A stretch of 58,622 bases of DNA, taken from positions 1 to 58,622 of the forward strand of contig NZ_FMBA01000013.1 of NCBI RefSeq assembly GCF_900094935.1, in the 5' to 3' direction. Origin of the DNA: Gilliamella intestini. GTDB taxonomy: Bacteria; Pseudomonadota; Gammaproteobacteria; Enterobacterales; Orbaceae. The notes under the pieces were generated by a model. The model made no database searches. It saw nothing but the letters and a program-made list of their open reading frames with translations, and had not been told where the DNA came from. The position numbers and the translations under genes are program-made. Positions 7,146-58,622 of the stretch are shown one piece after another (the stretch's first letter is position 1; each line of letters opens with the position of its first letter).

Positions 7146-7370
7146 AAACATCAAGTTTTTACATTTCATATGCTTAAAATAATTCACTCAAAATACATAA
7201 CTTGAGATTTATCAGGGGTATGAATTTAATTAATTGATTTTTATTTGTTTTCTACATAAACGTAGTACACTCCTGAAACTTTTTGACAAAAATTATTTTA
7301 TAAATAAAATAAAAATGCCGTTAGTTTGAGCTAACGGCATTCTATTAAGTATATAAATGACTTTTTATTA
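7146..7370. other. Intergenic region between Rhs array and lpd
   Basis: AT-rich sequence with no gene. Around 7260-7295 it holds a partial match to the dispersed element described at 29046 and 35428 (AAACG...CTCCTGAA...TTTTT.ACAA). The lpd terminator is at 7314-7341. Confidence 0.6.
7314..7341 (-). terminator. Terminator of the aceE-aceF-lpd operon
   Basis: AATGCCGTTAG and CTAACGGCATT form a perfect 11-bp stem with a 6-base loop. On the minus strand it is followed by TTTTTATTTT, 30 bases past the lpd stop. Confidence 0.9.
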
Positions 7371-8795
7371 TTATTTCTTCTTCGCTTTAGCATTTGGTAA
7401 ATCAGTGACAGAGCCTTCATAAATTTCAGAGGCTAAGCCAATTGATTCATGCAATGTTGGGTGAGCATGAATTGTTAATGCGATATCTTCGGCATCACAA
7501 CCCATTTCGACAGCTAAGGTGATTTCACCAAGTAATTCACCACCATTTGCGCCAACAATCGCACCACCTAATAGGCGATTATCTTCTTTATTGAAGATCA
7601 GTTTTGTCATCCCCTCAGAGCAATCAGAAGCGATAGCTCGTCCTGAAGCTGCCCATGGGAAGATTGATACTTCATAATCAATACCTTTTTCTTTCGCTTC
7701 TTTTTCAGTTAAGCCAACCCAAGCAACTTCTGGTTCAGTATAGGCGATAGAAGGAATGGTTTTTGGATCAAAGAAGTGTTTTTTACCTGCAATCACTTCT
7801 GCTGCCACATGGCCTTCGTGTACGCCTTTGTGCGCAAGCATTGGTTGACCAACAATATCTCCAATTGCATAGATATGCGGAACATTGGTACGCATCTGTT
7901 TATCTACTTCGATAAATCCACGGTCAGTAACATTAACGCCTGCTTTTTCCGCACTAATTAATTTACCATTTGGTGTACGACCAATAGCCACTAATACCGC
8001 ATCATAAGTATGAGTTTCGGTGCTACCGTCTTTCTTTTCCATGGTGACATAAATTGCATCATGTTTTGCTTCAACGGTAGTAACTTTAGTTTCCAATCGT
8101 AAAGTGAATTTCTTTTGGATCTGTTTAGTAAAGACTTTAATTACATCTTTATCAGCAGCCGGAATCACTTGATCAAACATTTCAACTACATCGACTTCTG
8201 AACCAAGTGCATGGTATACAGTCCCCATTTCAAGACCTATAATTCCACCACCCATTAATAATAATTTTTTAGGAATGGTGGTTAAGGCTAAGGCATCTGT
8301 AGAATCCCAAATACGAGGATCATCATGTGGAATAAAAGGCAACTTGATTGGACGAGAACCCGCTGCAATAATTGCGTTATCAAAGGTGATCTTAGTAATT
8401 CCTTTTGATGAAGTCACCTCCATTGTATGACTACCGGTAAACTGTGCTTCACCTTGAATAACATTAACTTTGCGCATTTTGGCCATACTAGCTAGTCCAT
8501 TAGTCAGTTGACTAATAACTTTTTCTTTCCAACCACGCACTTTGTCTAATTCAAGTCTAGGTGTACCAAAATGGATACCATGTTCGGTTAATGATTTTGC
8601 TTCATCCATTACTTTAGCAACATGAAGTAATGCTTTTGATGGAATACAGCCTACATTTAAACAAACACCACCAAGTGTTGAATAACGTTCAACAAGGGTA
8701 ACTTCTAGTCCAAGGTCGGCTGCACGGAACGCAGCAGAATAACCCGCTGGTCCTGCTCCTAAAACCACAACTTGTGTTTTAACATCTTGACTCAT
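7371..8795 (-). CDS. lpd: Dihydrolipoyl dehydrogenase (E3)
   Basis: Flavoprotein disulfide reductase that reoxidises dihydrolipoyl groups of the pyruvate (and other 2-oxo acid) dehydrogenase complexes, passing electrons through FAD to NAD+. Visible: N-terminal FAD-binding VVLGAGPAGYSAAFRAADLG; redox-active disulfide in GGVCLNVGCIPSK; NAD-binding GGGIIGLEMGTVYHALG; FAD motif YAIGDIVGQPMLAHK; C-terminal active-site HAHPTLHE. At 474 residues it matches E. coli Lpd. Last gene of the operon, 16 bases after aceF, with a strong terminator beyond. The C terminus ends in a lysine-rich tail. Confidence 0.97.
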   Translation of the reverse strand: MSQDVKTQVVVLGAGPAGYSAAFRAADLGLEVTLVERYSTLGGVCLNVGCIPSKALLHVAKVMDEAKSLTEHGIHFGTPRLELDKVRGWKEKVISQLTNGLASMAKMRKVNVIQGEAQFTGSHTMEVTSSKGITKITFDNAIIAAGSRPIKLPFIPHDDPRIWDSTDALALTTIPKKLLLMGGGIIGLEMGTVYHALGSEVDVVEMFDQVIPAADKDVIKVFTKQIQKKFTLRLETKVTTVEAKHDAIYVTMEKKDGSTETHTYDAVLVAIGRTPNGKLISAEKAGVNVTDRGFIEVDKQMRTNVPHIYAIGDIVGQPMLAHKGVHEGHVAAEVIAGKKHFFDPKTIPSIAYTEPEVAWVGLTEKEAKEKGIDYEVSIFPWAASGRAIASDCSEGMTKLIFNKEDNRLLGGAIVGANGGELLGEITLAVEMGCDAEDIALTIHAHPTLHESIGLASEIYEGSVTDLPNAKAKKK

Positions 8796-10431: not shown

Positions 10432-13098
10432 TTATGCAATTCGTGGATTAAGTTTATCGGCATTGATTTCGAATTTTTTGATCGCATCTTCAACAACGCT
10501 AACTTCAATATCGCCACGTTTAGCAAGTTCACCCAATGCTGCAACCACAACATAAGATGCATCGACTTCAAAATGATGACGTAAATTTTCACGGCTATCA
10601 CTGCGACCAAAGCCGTCTGTGCCAAGCACTCGATAACTTTCAGCAGGTACAAATCCGCGAATTTGCTCAGCAAAAATTTTCATATAATCAGTTGAAACCA
10701 CCGCTGGGTTGTTATTCATAATTTGTGCAACATAAGGCACTTTAGGTGTTTCACTTGGATGTAACATATTGTATCGTTCACAATCTTGCCCATCACGAGC
10801 CAGTTCAGTAAAGGATGTTACACTATAAACTTCAGAGCTAATACCATAGTTTTTCGCTAAAATATCAGCCGCTTCACGCACATGGCGCAAAATTGAACCA
10901 GAACCTAATAACTGTACTGTTGGTTTGCCTTTTTGACCTTCAACGGTATCTAGTTTATAAATACCACGTCGAATACCTTCTTCTGCACCTTCTGGCATTG
11001 CAGGTTGTGCATAGTTTTCGTTAAGTGTTGTAATGTAGTAATAAACATTTTCTTGTTCGCCATACATACGACGTAAACCATCTTGCATAATAACCGCAAC
11101 TTCATAAGCATAAGCCGGATCGTATGAGATACAATTAGGCATAGTTAATGATTGAATATGGCTATGACCATCTTGATGTTGTAAACCTTCACCATTTAGT
11201 GTGGTACGACCAGAAGTCCCGCCAATCATAAATCCACGTGCTTGCTGATCACCTGCTGCCCACATTAAATCGCCAATGCGTTGGAAACCAAACATAGAAT
11301 AGTAAATATAGAATGGAATCATTGGGAAATCATTGGTACTATAGGAGGTTGCAGCCGCTAACCATGAAGCGGTTGCACCACATTCATTAATTCCTTCTTG
11401 GAGAATTTGACCTTTTTCATCTTCACGGTAATAAGCAACTTGTTCTTTATCTTGCGGTGTATATTGTTGACCGTGTGGGTTATAAATCCCAATTTGACGG
11501 AACAAACCTTCCATACCAAAAGTACGAGCTTCATCAGCCAAAATTGGCACTAATCGTGGTGCTAATTCTTTATCCTTCAGCATAATGTTAAGTGCTCGGA
11601 CAAACGCAATTGTGGTTGATATTTCTTTTGATTGAGCTTCAAGTAATGAAGAGAATTCACTTAGTGCTGGAATAGAAACAGTACCAGAGAACTTAGTTAA
11701 TCGCGATGGAACATAACCATGTAATGCATTACGACGTTCATGGATATACTTGTATTCTGGAGTATGTTCTTCAAATTTAATGTATGGTAATTTTTCAAGT
11801 GCTTCATCTGTTACTGGAATATTGAAGAAATCACGAACATGACGCACGCCATCCATATTCATTTTTTTCACTTGGTGTGCAATGTTTTTCGCTTCAGCAG
11901 CTTCACCCATACCATAACCTTTAATGGTGTGAGCTAAAATAACGGTTGGGCGATCTTTAGTTTCTTTTGCTCGTTGGAATGCAGCAAACATTTTAGCAGG
12001 ATCTTGACCACCACGGTTTAATCTAAAGATTTCTTCATCAGACATATCTTTAACTAATTCAGCGGTTTCTGGATATTTACCAAAGAAATGCTCACGCACA
12101 TAAGCGCCGTCTTTAGATTTTAAGGTTTGATAATCGCCATCTAGCGTTTCATTCATCAGGCGAATTAATTTACCAGATTTATCTTTTTGTAATAATTTAT
12201 CCCAGCGATCACCCCAAAGAACTTTAATGACATTCCAGCCGGCACCACCAAATACACCTTCTAATTCATTTATGATTTTACCATTACCCGTTACTGGACC
12301 ATCTAATCGTTGTAAATTACAGTTGATAACAAAAACTAAATTATCAAGTTTTTCACGTGTTGCAACGGTGATTGCCCCTTTTGATTCTGGTTCATCCATC
12401 TCACCGTCACCTAAGAAAGCATAGACAGTTTGTTCAGAAGTATCTTTCAACCCACGATTTTCTAAATATTTTAAAAAACGTGCTTGGTAAATTGCACTAA
12501 TAGGACCAAGTCCCATTGATACTGTTGGGAATTGCCAGAATTCTGGAAGTAATTTAGGATGAGGATATGATGGTAAACCTTTACCATGAACTTCTTGACG
12601 AAAATTATCTAACTGCTCTTCGGTTAAACGTCCTTCAATAAAGGCTCGAGAGTAAATACCAGGTGAGATATGTCCTTGGAAGTAAATTAAATCACCGCCA
12701 TCTTTTTCATTACGAGCACGGAAAAAGTGGTTAAAACAGACTTCATAAAAAGTAGCTGCAGATTGGAACGATGCCATATGACCACCAAGCTCTAAATCTT
12801 TCTTTGAAGCTCGTAACACCATCATAATTGCATTCCAACGGACAATTGAACGAATACGTCTTTCTATTTCCCAATCGCCAGGATATGTAGGTTGTTCTTC
12901 TACTGGAATTGTATTGACATAATTACTTGTTGAAGATCCAAACAGTACTGGAACACCCCCATCTCTCGCCTTATTAACTATTTGTTCAATAATATATTGT
13001 GCACGTTCGATTCCTTCTTCTCGAATAATAGACTCAACACTTTTGAGCCAATCTTGTGTTTCAATGGGATCGACATCATTCATTTGCATGTCCGACAT
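10432..13098 (-). CDS. aceE: Pyruvate dehydrogenase E1, homodimeric type
   Basis: Thiamine-diphosphate enzyme that decarboxylates pyruvate and acetylates the lipoyl domains of AceF. The start is set at 13098 (MSDMQMNDVDPIETQDW), preceded by AGAGG; an in-frame start at 13131 adds residues unlike any family member. The resulting 888 residues match E. coli AceE (887). Visible: GDGEMDEPESKGA and FVINCNLQRLDGPV (ThDP/Mg binding), HTIKGYGMG, ADEARTFGMEGLFRQIGIY. First gene of aceE-aceF-lpd. No pdhR-like regulator is upstream, unlike E. coli; instead lipB is divergent. Confidence 0.97.
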   Translation of the reverse strand: MSDMQMNDVDPIETQDWLKSVESIIREEGIERAQYIIEQIVNKARDGGVPVLFGSSTSNYVNTIPVEEQPTYPGDWEIERRIRSIVRWNAIMMVLRASKKDLELGGHMASFQSAATFYEVCFNHFFRARNEKDGGDLIYFQGHISPGIYSRAFIEGRLTEEQLDNFRQEVHGKGLPSYPHPKLLPEFWQFPTVSMGLGPISAIYQARFLKYLENRGLKDTSEQTVYAFLGDGEMDEPESKGAITVATREKLDNLVFVINCNLQRLDGPVTGNGKIINELEGVFGGAGWNVIKVLWGDRWDKLLQKDKSGKLIRLMNETLDGDYQTLKSKDGAYVREHFFGKYPETAELVKDMSDEEIFRLNRGGQDPAKMFAAFQRAKETKDRPTVILAHTIKGYGMGEAAEAKNIAHQVKKMNMDGVRHVRDFFNIPVTDEALEKLPYIKFEEHTPEYKYIHERRNALHGYVPSRLTKFSGTVSIPALSEFSSLLEAQSKEISTTIAFVRALNIMLKDKELAPRLVPILADEARTFGMEGLFRQIGIYNPHGQQYTPQDKEQVAYYREDEKGQILQEGINECGATASWLAAATSYSTNDFPMIPFYIYYSMFGFQRIGDLMWAAGDQQARGFMIGGTSGRTTLNGEGLQHQDGHSHIQSLTMPNCISYDPAYAYEVAVIMQDGLRRMYGEQENVYYYITTLNENYAQPAMPEGAEEGIRRGIYKLDTVEGQKGKPTVQLLGSGSILRHVREAADILAKNYGISSEVYSVTSFTELARDGQDCERYNMLHPSETPKVPYVAQIMNNNPAVVSTDYMKIFAEQIRGFVPAESYRVLGTDGFGRSDSRENLRHHFEVDASYVVVAALGELAKRGDIEVSVVEDAIKKFEINADKLNPRIA

Positions 13099-55697: not shown

Positions 55698-56564
55698 ATG
55701 ACAAAAATCATTAACGAAAAACTAGCCAAACTAGTCAATAACCAAGAGTCAATCAATCATATCTATTTTGCCAATAGTAATGCTTGCCCGCCTTTACTTG
55801 CCTGCCAAGCCAACTTTCCTAGAATTGAAATTATATTAGAAGGAAAGCAACAAATGTTATGGGAGGATAGTAATGGCAAAGTTATTGAAAAAATATTATC
55901 AACTAATGATCTTTTATATATTTCCGCTCAAAGCTGGAACAAACCCATTTGGACAAGCCCTGTTACTTTATTAAACATCTTATTTGATCAACAACAAATT
56001 GGTATAAGCCTATTGCATTGGGATGGCACACAACTAATTCCGCTTGAGCAAATCAACACACCAAGACGTGGTCCACGGGTTGGTACATTTATTATTCAAG
56101 CTCTGACCGAACTTATCTGGCAAAACCAGTCAGATAAACAAAATCAAACTGCTTACTATCTTATTCACAGTTTGCTTAGCAACACACTTGATTTGTTAAA
56201 TACCAATGTCAAAACATCAGCCAAAACTACTTGCCTATATGAAGCCATTTGCCAATATATTGATACTCACTTTCGTGAGGATATTACACGCGACTTTTTA
56301 GCTAATATGTTTTACATTTCACCCAATTACTTATCACATCTATTTCAAAGCGAGGGAAAAATAGGATTAAATGAATATCTAAATCATATTCGCTTAGAAT
56401 ATGCCAAATCGCTATTAAAGGATTATGATCTAAATATAAAAGAAATTGCGCTAGCATCGGGGTTTAAAGATAGTAATTATTTTTGTCGGATTTTTAAAAA
56501 AAAGACAGAACGAACACCAACACTGTATCGTCGACAATATCATAGTAAGTTAATGCGCAAATAG
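55698..56564 (+). CDS. AraC-family transcriptional regulator
   Basis: 288 residues. The N-terminal ~170 residues are a cupin-like sensor (RIEIILEGKQQMLWED, LLYISAQSWNKPIWTSP). The C-terminal ~100 residues have the two AraC helix-turn-helix units (RDFLANMFYISPNYLSHLFQSEG; LNIKEIALASGFKDSNYFCRIFKKKTERTPTLYR split at PNYLSH and SNYFCRIFKK). Divergent from fsa with a CRP-like site between, so probably an activator of fsa in response to a sugar. Ligand unknown. Last chromosomal gene before the CRISPR region. Confidence 0.88.
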   Translation: MTKIINEKLAKLVNNQESINHIYFANSNACPPLLACQANFPRIEIILEGKQQMLWEDSNGKVIEKILSTNDLLYISAQSWNKPIWTSPVTLLNILFDQQQIGISLLHWDGTQLIPLEQINTPRRGPRVGTFIIQALTELIWQNQSDKQNQTAYYLIHSLLSNTLDLLNTNVKTSAKTTCLYEAICQYIDTHFREDITRDFLANMFYISPNYLSHLFQSEGKIGLNEYLNHIRLEYAKSLLKDYDLNIKEIALASGFKDSNYFCRIFKKKTERTPTLYRRQYHSKLMRK

Positions 56565-56723: not shown

Positions 56724-56751
56724 AAAATTAAGCTGTTATACAGCAGTGAAC
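56724..56751 (-). repeat. Divergent type I-F CRISPR-like repeat (psi-repeat 2)
   Basis: On the minus strand it reads GTTCACTGCTGTATAACAGC then TTAATTTT. Against the general type I-F consensus (GTTCACTGCCGTATAGGCAG then CTTAGAAA) it keeps GTTCACTGC, GTATA and CAGCTTA with one deletion and a few changes in the middle and a changed last third. The stem stays paired as GCTGT-TAT-ACAGC. It is closer to that consensus than to the array's own GTTTACCGCC-type repeat. Found 30 nt from the next unit. Confidence 0.7.
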
Positions 56752-56781
56752 GTTATGCTGTTAAAAATAATAATGCCAGAA

Positions 56782-56809
56782 TATCTAAACCGCCTATGCG
56801 GCGGTAAAC
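56782..56809 (-). repeat. Isolated near-perfect copy of the array repeat (psi-repeat 1)
   Basis: Identical to the ten array repeats at 27 of 28 positions; one T/A change near the end that would form the crRNA 5' handle (TTTAGATA in place of TTTAGAAA on the minus strand). It lies 1,240 bases left of the first array repeat at 58050. With the divergent unit at 56724-56751 it encloses a 30-nt spacer-like segment (56752-56781). Confidence 0.9.
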
Positions 56810-56838
56810 TTAGTACTCAACCACGAATAATTTGATGA

Positions 56839-57162
56839 AAACAAGCCATTTTCTTATTACTTATTTATGCAAACAAAAAATGGGCTATAGAAAAAGTTGA
56901 GCGATTGGAAGCTCAAGAATTTATTATTAATCATTTCGGTCAGGCTAATTATCAATTTCAAATAAACGGTAAGCAATCGGCATTTGCAAAATTAATTGAT
57001 AACAACGGTAATGAAAGGACGATTTGGTCGAAACAGATTAATCGATTTTTAAATGACAATAAAGCAGAAAAAGGAGATAAGATTATAATAAAAGGTGACA
57101 AGTTTATAATGAATAAGAATCAGATTAGCAAGTCTATAAACTTATCACAGATAGAAATTTAA
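56839..57162 (+). pseudogene. Fragment of a plasmid relaxase/primase-associated protein
   Basis: The frame is open from 56839; the part from the TTG at 56905 gives 85 residues, but the reading ahead of it (YANKKWAIEKVERLE) looks coding, so the true start seems lost. FGQANYQFQINGKQSAFAKLIDNNGNERTIWSK and LNDNKAEKGDKIIIKGDKF (given in parts: QFQINGKQSAF, GNERTIWSKQINRFL, KGDKIIIKG) resemble the small beta domain near the C terminus of LPD7/TraI-type plasmid relaxases and primases (...RTLWGVDLERAL...GDxVxL). A remnant of conjugative DNA; recall-based call. Confidence 0.42.
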
Positions 57163-57187
57163 AAGCAGCTTCGCTTATATGATAAAA

Positions 57188-57418
57188 TTAATCCCAGGCG
57201 TGAGGATTTCGTTCCGGTGGTGTTCCTATCATTAATGAGAATGTTGCATCAGCAGCGTTTCTACATGTTAGACTAAAACTATCTAACTCCCCATTTTTAC
57301 ATTTTTTATTGTATTCTTCTCGTAGCTCTTTGTTATTTTTAAAATCTTCTACAGTATATGTCTTCTCATTACATCCGAATAAAAACATAGCAGTAATTAA
57401 TATTAGTATCTTTTTCAT
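57188..57418 (-). CDS. EexN-like entry-exclusion lipoprotein
   Basis: 76 residues: signal ILILITAMFLFGC with lipobox ending at Cys16, then YTVEDFKNNKELREEYNKKC, KNGELDSFSLTCRNAADA. The pattern of a short lipoprotein with V..(F/Y)..N...R......CKN...L.....C.NA is that of plasmid EexN proteins, which block uptake of a related conjugative plasmid. It would be exported to the periplasmic face of a membrane. Intact reading frame, but neighbouring plasmid genes are broken, so it may be a relic. Confidence 0.7.
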   Translation of the reverse strand: MKKILILITAMFLFGCNEKTYTVEDFKNNKELREEYNKKCKNGELDSFSLTCRNAADATFSLMIGTPPERNPHAWD

Positions 57419-57451
57419 ATAAATTCCTTACAATTGTTGGTTAATATTAGA

Positions 57452-57607
57452 TTAAGTTTTATTGTGTTTCATTAAAAAATCATTTACAGCTAACCTAAGT
57501 AAATCAGAAATTGTCTTTAAAGGCAACTTGGCACGTTTATTTTTTATTGCAATATCTTCTAATTCTTCATATTGAATTTCATCAATTTCAAACGAAATTT
57601 TTCTCAT
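57452..57607 (-). CDS. Small ribbon-helix-helix-like protein, plasmid type
   Basis: 51 residues from ATG 57607: RKISFEIDEIQYEELEDIAIKN, then a helix LKTISDLLRLAVNDFLM, which fits a ribbon-helix-helix DNA-binding fold (strand, helix, turn, helix) as in plasmid mobilisation and partition regulators. The frame extends upstream (NKLADELADRPYAGGGKKES) to a stop with no ATG, GTG or TTG, suggesting that the original N terminus has lost its start. Same strand as the EexN-like gene. Too small for a firm family. Confidence 0.5.
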   Translation of the reverse strand: MRKISFEIDEIQYEELEDIAIKNKRAKLPLKTISDLLRLAVNDFLMKHNKT

Positions 57608-57689
57608 GACTTTAGATTTAGATTCTTTTTTACCGCCACCAGCGTAGGGACGATCTGCTAATTCATCAGCCAGTTTATTCGCTTAGTTA

Positions 57690-57717
57690 TTTACAGTAAT
57701 TTGAGAAACTACTGTAA
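57690..57717. repeat. Dispersed palindromic element, copy 3 (inverted)
   Basis: TTTACAGTAATTTGAG then TACTGTAAT: an imperfect palindrome that matches the reverse complement of the core of copy 1 (29066-29104) over about 27 of 34 positions, lying between plasmid-type gene remnants. Confidence 0.5.
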
Positions 57718-57720
57718 TGA

Positions 57721-57990
57721 ATATACATAAAAAACAAAACTAACGCCTTATCACAGACAGAGGTATGTCACCTATATCATAAAGAAAAAATAACTGTCAC
57801 TGAATTGGCTAAACCTTTTATGACTAGTCGTTTGACGACCATTTATAGCGTGCTAAAGAAAGTCCGATTGGACCTGTTTGCGCCTCTAATCTGTAAAGGT
57901 AAACGTTATAAAAGCATTGGTTATGGAATTAAACATCAGGTTAAAGTTAAAAATTCCATTGAAGATAAATTAAGACAACAAGCTAACTAA
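57721..57990 (+). pseudogene. Fragment with resolvase-type helix-turn-helix
   Basis: Open from 57721 without ATG; TTG at 57805 or an upstream non-ATG codon would be needed. The reading TEVCHLYHKEKITVTELAKP, SRLTTIYSVLKK resembles the C-terminal HTH of serine resolvases/invertases (I.VTELAK...S..TIY..L). The end (KSIEDKLRQQAN-like) is charged. The catalytic domain is missing, so it is a remnant if real. Low confidence. Confidence 0.3.
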
Positions 57991-58049
57991 ACACTATAAC
58001 AAAACCTATCTGGCGAAATAATCACTGGATAATATAAGCATAACCAATG

Positions 58050-58617
58050 TTTCTAAACCGCCTATGCGGCGGTAAACATTAAATCACCTTCTTTAAACTC
58101 GGGCTCCATTTTCTAAACCGCCTATGCGGCGGTAAACATTATTCCCGAAAAAAATGCTTATCGGATACATTTCTAAACCGCCTATGCGGCGGTAAACATG
58201 AGAACTGACGGCACAAAGATGGTTGTAGCTTTCTAAACCGCCTATGCGGCGGTAAACTAGTCCCGAAGATGACGCTATACGTGATATTTTTTCTAAACCG
58301 CCTATGCGGCGGTAAACCAACCATTGGTGGACGAATTTTAGAAGCAAATTTTCTAAACCGCCTATGCGGCGGTAAACTTAATACTGATCACAAATGGACT
58401 CAAAGCTGGTTTCTAAACCGCCTATGCGGCGGTAAACCCTATGGTCGTTTAACATACGACGGGGTAGGATTTCTAAACCGCCTATGCGGCGGTAAACGAC
58501 ACCGTTAAAGCCGATGCGGAGCATATCTATTTCTAAACCGCCTATGCGGCGGTAAACAGCAAGAAATTATCGCCCCCCAAGTTTGGATCTTTCTAAACCG
58601 CCTATGCGGCGGTAAAC
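58050..58617 (-). CRISPR. Type I-F CRISPR array, 10 repeats and 9 spacers, truncated by window
   Basis: Ten identical 28-bp repeats start every 60 bases at 58050, 58110, 58170 ... 58590; spacers are all 32 nt. On the minus strand each repeat starts GTTTACCGCCG, has the stem CCGCC...GGCGG and ends TTTAGAAA, matching the I-F repeat form, so transcription is leftward and the leader and cas genes lie right of the window. All repeats are perfect even at the left (trailer) end, and sequence after 58617 continues as another spacer. Several spacers read as open coding sequence, as for phage targets. Repeat identity suggests an active, young array. Confidence 0.96.
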
Positions 58618-58622
58618 ATGTT

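Follow-up and report, generated by a model that had tools for sequence, protein, structure and literature searches.

Two detached type I-F repeat-like units near an araC-family gene in Gilliamella intestini: very probably the trailer end of a CRISPR array parted by a plasmid-like insert

Gilliamella is a bee-gut bacterium, and the DNA analysed here (the window) is a 58,622-nucleotide stretch of G. intestini, corresponding to contig C65 of a genome (G000) assembled in 113 contigs. Near its right end the window carries an AraC-family regulator gene (55698–56564, + strand; Pfam HTH_18, E=6.3e-20, and HTH_AraC, E=3.8e-14), a lone pair of repeat-like units (56724–56809), an insert (56810–58049), and a type I-F CRISPR array (58050–58622, - strand) that has 28-nt repeats and 32-nt spacers and runs from 58050 past the window end. 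All ten array repeats within the window match Rfam CRISPR-DR4 on the - strand with 40.3 bits each, so the array reads right to left, its far end pointing at the AraC gene, whose 3′ end forms the leader-distal border of the array site. Between the lone pair and the lowest-numbered repeat of the main array (58050–58077) there are 1,240 nt.

Allowing 3 mismatches or fewer, G000 contains 13 copies of a 25-nt core of the window repeat, of which 11 are on C65 and two at the start of contig C92, where they are followed by a leader and then by an MFS gene. The repeats, the leader and the neighbouring gene together suggest that the array spans the gap between C65 and C92, and would thus lie between the AraC and MFS genes. 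A full I-F cas operon (cas6f, csy3, csy2, csy1, cas2/3 and cas1) is present on contig C23, and PF09615 matches are found in 21 of the 35 genus genomes, G000 included. Beside cas6f on C23 there is a second I-F array (L135, about 7317–7768) with a different repeat, TTTCTAAACTGCCTATACGGCATTGAAG on the strand shown.

The lone pair consists of two repeat-like units around a 30-nt segment, correctly located and described as such in the first-pass annotation. It has the same orientation as the array, whose leader lies at the other end, on C92, if the contigs join as proposed; read on the - strand, the parts would be the last canonical repeat (56782–56809), a terminal spacer (56752–56781), and a degenerate terminal repeat (56724–56751) at the leader-distal end. 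The first of these shares 27 of its 28 positions with the array repeat, and its sole change was rightly placed in the handle: a T to A substitution at 56783, within the 8-nt handle, which in the crRNA sense turns TTTAGAAA into TTTAGATA. It matches Rfam CRISPR-DR4 on the - strand with 36.9 bits (gathering score 35), and chance origin is excluded; the window holds 11 copies of the array repeat at three or fewer mismatches, and dinucleotide shuffles give 0.00.

The degenerate unit has no CRISPR-DR4 match at E≤1. Its 5′ part retains GTTCACTG and its 3′ handle is decayed, and in gapped alignment it agrees with the textbook I-F repeat at 22 positions and with the local repeat at 15, scores that are reached by 0 of 2000 and 18 of 2000 shuffles, respectively; a chance origin is very unlikely. 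The earlier description of this unit as nearer to the general I-F repeat than to the local one thus holds, but the statement that it keeps the hairpin was too strong, as its fold of -5.1 kcal/mol is equalled by 16 of 200 shuffles (the array repeat has -11.2 kcal/mol). The unit also contains a terminator-like stem on the - strand (56744–56732), and a foldable, terminator-like repeat would also suit a short RNA gene, a point against reading the pair as an array end.

Such a gene had been suggested in view of the layout, psi-repeat, psi-spacer, psi-repeat, which resembles that of Acinetobacter I-F creA; the latter has a guide that agrees in part with a CC-flanked target close by, and sits in the gap between cas3 and csy1 (PMC10097628). 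A CreA/CreR-like gene here would have its own - strand promoter, and its 30-nt guide, paired in part with a site beside a CC PAM, would have the Csy complex repress either a toxin RNA or the cas operon. The full I-F cas operon in G000 and the foldability of the terminal repeat speak for this. We searched for partial matches of 56752–56781 in the window and in an 18-kb cas region, against 200 shuffled guides in each case, and across the genome using a seed pattern with a reversed control. The window has one CC-flanked site with a full seed (7/7), at 10988, which pairs at 15 of 30 positions and is matched in quality in 36 of 200 shuffled guides; the best total in the window, 17/30, is equalled by 197 of 200. 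The best CC-flanked sites of the cas region score 19, 19 and 18 of 30 and lie in cas1, an array, and csy3, a score of 19 being reached by 12 of 200 shuffles, and no full-seed CC-flanked match occurs in these 18 kb, which include about 1.1 kb above cas1; this counts against a CreR-like match of the guide to the cas promoter. Genome-wide, the seed pattern is found at 14 places with at most one mismatch, twice the 7 of the reversed pattern, an excess that would also fit a short RNA gene; nine of the 14 loci gave a CC-flanked site matching six or more of the seven seed positions and five gave none, and among those nine, for which full-length scores were obtained, the fullest match (22/30) falls within an open frame. 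None of these matches is convincing. There is no promoter-like site on the - strand between 56550 and 57200, and the sequence adjoining the pair is not a leader.

The 1,240-bp insert (56810–58049) carries plasmid-like and transposon-derived remnants. It includes a fragment of a MobP1-type relaxase (56905–57162, + strand; NCBIfam NF041450, E=5.9e-9, 35.7 bits, under the 200-bit whole-protein cut-off and covering model positions 236–292 of 321), an EexN-family lipoprotein gene (57188–57418, - strand; NCBIfam NF033894, E=2.1e-16, 59.6 bits, cut-off 33), for which the family name indicates entry exclusion, and a gene for a small ribbon-helix-helix-like protein, perhaps involved in plasmid copy control (57452–57607, - strand), with weak matches to Pfam RHH_3 (E=0.0015) and NCBIfam ORF56 (E=0.0025) that are both below cut-off. 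A further fragment (57805–57990, + strand) has no family match of its own in Pfam or NCBIfam and is related, through the similarity of the surrounding DNA, to the N-terminal region of a transposase gene present in multiple copies; 57686–58013 is 83% identical to G000:C25:6824–7146, where the neighbouring ORFs match HTH_11 and rve_3. The segment 57686–58020, about 330 bp, has many diverged copies across several Gilliamella genomes (the counts being lower bounds), and is akin to an rve-domain transposase gene elsewhere in G000. Neither the DNA of the insert nor its EexN protein has a match in a plasmid collection, which may omit records very near the window's genome.

Parts of the insert recur in other genomes. 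From 56879 to the array it is common to strain Pas-s25 and G. mensalis (84–85% identity), from 57456 on it is common to Choc5-1, and G009 shares part of it. The first approximately 69 nt, from 56810 to about 56878, are without counterpart in these four copies, a point that counts against reading the pair as an array end parted by the insert; this segment could be a spacer remnant together with other DNA.

A repeat at the border of mobile-element DNA is also what would be seen with an RNA anti-CRISPR (Racr), in which a mimic of the repeat, borne on the plasmid-like DNA, blocks the Csy proteins; phages and plasmids carry Racrs as solitary repeats (PMC10651486). The lone pair is not a solitary repeat, and Lep-s35 and App4-10, described below, have the pair as an array end with no insert alongside, so that it is part of the chromosomal site rather than of the element. 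We consider a Racr extremely improbable here.

Using the 3′ end of the AraC gene as an anchor for comparing loci, we examined relatives found through the AraC protein, comprising loci from 20 Gilliamella genomes (L046–L065, L078 being the other part of the AraC gene in Lep-s35), and scanned them for repeat-like units with 9 mismatches allowed. Units lie within 2 kb 3′ of the AraC gene in eight of the 20 (L046, L047, L049, L050, L057, L058, L059 and L078), and in the remaining 12 none are found in that interval, of which about 1.8 and 1.3 kb only were covered at L055 and L063. L051 has an array 5.4 kb from the AraC gene, and elsewhere there are single matches at chance level.

At the Lep-s35 locus the AraC 3′ end is followed by a terminal repeat, a homologous spacer of 28 nt, seven canonical repeats with one per 60 nt, a leader, and the MFS gene. 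The 60-nt periodicity, with 32-nt spacers, holds up to the last canonical repeat, beyond which come the 28-nt terminal spacer and the degenerate repeat, and the site has no insert between pair and array. The Lep-s35 AraC gene seems to be split, with residues 1–204 (L064) and 203–288 (L078) encoded on one strand of one contig with about 35 kb between them, and this looks like the entry of a large element. App4-10 (G021, L049) has a homologous terminal repeat, the homologous spacer, one repeat, a leader, and the MFS gene. The terminal repeat and spacer align across G000, Choc5-1, Lep-s35 and App4-10 as homologues (the App4-10 repeat with gaps).

Other relatives display broken or collapsed forms of the site. 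Choc5-1 retains the terminal repeat with some 24 nt of spacer, next to which comes a gene that starts with a helix-turn-helix (HTH_29), and the insert and array are on a separate contig beginning in an rve-domain transposase end; the HTH_29 gene and the rve-domain end may be the two ends of one mobile element. Pas-s25 and G. mensalis have the AraC gene, insert, array and MFS gene, with the leader seen in G. mensalis, and the lone pair is gone. The interruption of the pair in Choc5-1 and its absence in these two, all three of which keep csy3, argue against a CreA-like function. In G009 the insert is followed by one decayed repeat, a leader and the MFS gene; the pair is not seen, and there is no AraC match there with a query of the AraC 3′ end only. 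The one decayed repeat alone between insert and leader (L104, G009:C124) amounts to an almost fully collapsed array. The more distant G005 (L059) and ESL0177 (L057) have the AraC 3′ end, a degenerate terminal repeat, a 32-nt spacer and a canonical repeat, with no insert and with no MFS neighbour found within the stretch examined, and G018 has two degenerate repeats 32 nt apart.

The terminal repeats share a pattern of decay. Six of the seven at the site, the window's included, were lined up; all six start GTTCA and all six have a changed 3′ handle, and a repeat chosen from each corresponding array, in some cases other than the nearest, starts GTTTA in five of the six, with G018 as the exception. 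The seventh, in App4-10, starts GCTCA. The terminal hairpin of Lep-s35 retains only -0.7 kcal/mol, a loss that also argues against a CreA-like gene. In the literature, the terminal repeat is nearly always 3′-degenerate, being modified in 86% of CRISPR1 and 100% of CRISPR2, 3 and 4 of Escherichia and Salmonella (CRISPR3 and 4 having 28-bp repeats), and conservation is greatest among the leader-distal spacers (PMC2886076; PMC8047081).

The terminal spacer is 30 nt in G000, 28 nt in Lep-s35, 32 nt in App4-10 (31 nt counting a one-base alignment gap in the neighbouring repeat), and 32 nt in both ESL0177 and G005. That it is not 32 nt in G000 or Lep-s35 can be held against identifying the pair as an array end, and the first-pass annotation voiced such doubts over the spacing (30 nt) and over the mixed ancestry of the repeats. 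Because the homologous spacer itself varies in length among genomes, we attribute the spacing to drift in an end of the array that has ceased to be copied, which would account for both features. A search of viral contigs for the source of the spacer gave one exact 20-nt match that extends to 23 of 30 positions, with TG in place of the CC PAM; BLAST against phages at E≤10 gave 306 records, and among the ten listed the first ranked has E=8 and the lowest E is 0.05. A degenerate spacer pattern, which is blind to gapped homologues, occurs in two of the 35 genus genomes, at the G000 site itself and at one place with 3 mismatches in G013.

We conclude that the lone pair is, with very high confidence, the leader-distal (trailer) end of the I-F array between the AraC and MFS genes, cut off by the plasmid-like insert, because its terminal repeat and spacer are homologous in four genomes and the array continues directly into them in Lep-s35. 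The homology, the position, the continuity in a relative and the presence of the insert are established at the level of sequence comparison. This is the simpler view that the first-pass annotation had set beside the regulatory one, and the observation that the annotation had named as refuting the regulatory view, an array continuing into the pair with normal spacers in other strains, has in substance been made: the Lep-s35 array carries on as far as the homologous pair, its spacers being 32 nt long up to the 28-nt terminal one, and App4-10 has a terminal spacer of 32 (or 31) nt. Two further points weigh on the other side. The continuity in Lep-s35 could be secondary, if the insert was excised by recombination between repeats, although this would not alter the identity of the pair, because G005 and ESL0177 likewise end at the AraC gene without an insert; and the C65/C92 join is a reconstruction across a contig gap.

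In the sequence of events we propose, new units join at the leader end, and the last repeat would consequently not serve as a copying template. It would have drifted at its 3′ end and kept its older GTTCACTG start as the copied repeats became GTTTACCG, the older letters presumably being retained because the terminal repeat was not copied. The plasmid-like and transposon-derived 1,240 bp probably came second, parting the array end from the rest, and the pair, cut off from the leader, may now yield little or no crRNA.

A separate regulatory RNA gene is most likely not what the pair represents. The searches gave neither a convincing target beside a PAM nor a promoter-like site on the - strand, and the pair is broken or lost in relatives; the CreA-like proposal is left unsupported and we rate it as highly improbable. 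In a related scenario the terminal unit would have begun as a trailer end but would still be expressed by some Gilliamella (in App4-10 it adjoins the leader and forms an array with a single spacer), and its guide, kept over a long time, would have been turned to a chromosomal or plasmid target that the searches above did not reveal; we give this scenario a very small likelihood.

Degenerate array ends are a known phenomenon, and as the severed end of an array the G000 case is ordinary; the lone pair changes no view of CRISPR biology. It is of use as a comparative example, in which an array end severed by insertion mimics a CreA-type gene and terminal repeats hold older repeat letters, and in screens for mini-CRISPRs or solitary repeats the continuity of the array in relatives is worth checking first.

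Compared with known systems, the pair has in common with Acinetobacter I-F creA (CreTA) the two repeat-like units around one guide-like segment, but it lies outside the cas operon, has no convincing CC-flanked target or - strand promoter-like site, and is continuous with an array in a relative. With Racrs and other solitary repeat units it shares a repeat beside mobile-element DNA, and it differs in having two repeats, a chromosomal array origin, and element-free counterparts in relatives. From type I-F array trailer ends it differs in the 1,240-bp insert that parts the end from the array and in a terminal spacer of 30 rather than 32 nt, but it agrees with them in its leader-distal place, its changed 3′ end, an oldest spacer common to several genomes, and an I-F-like repeat.
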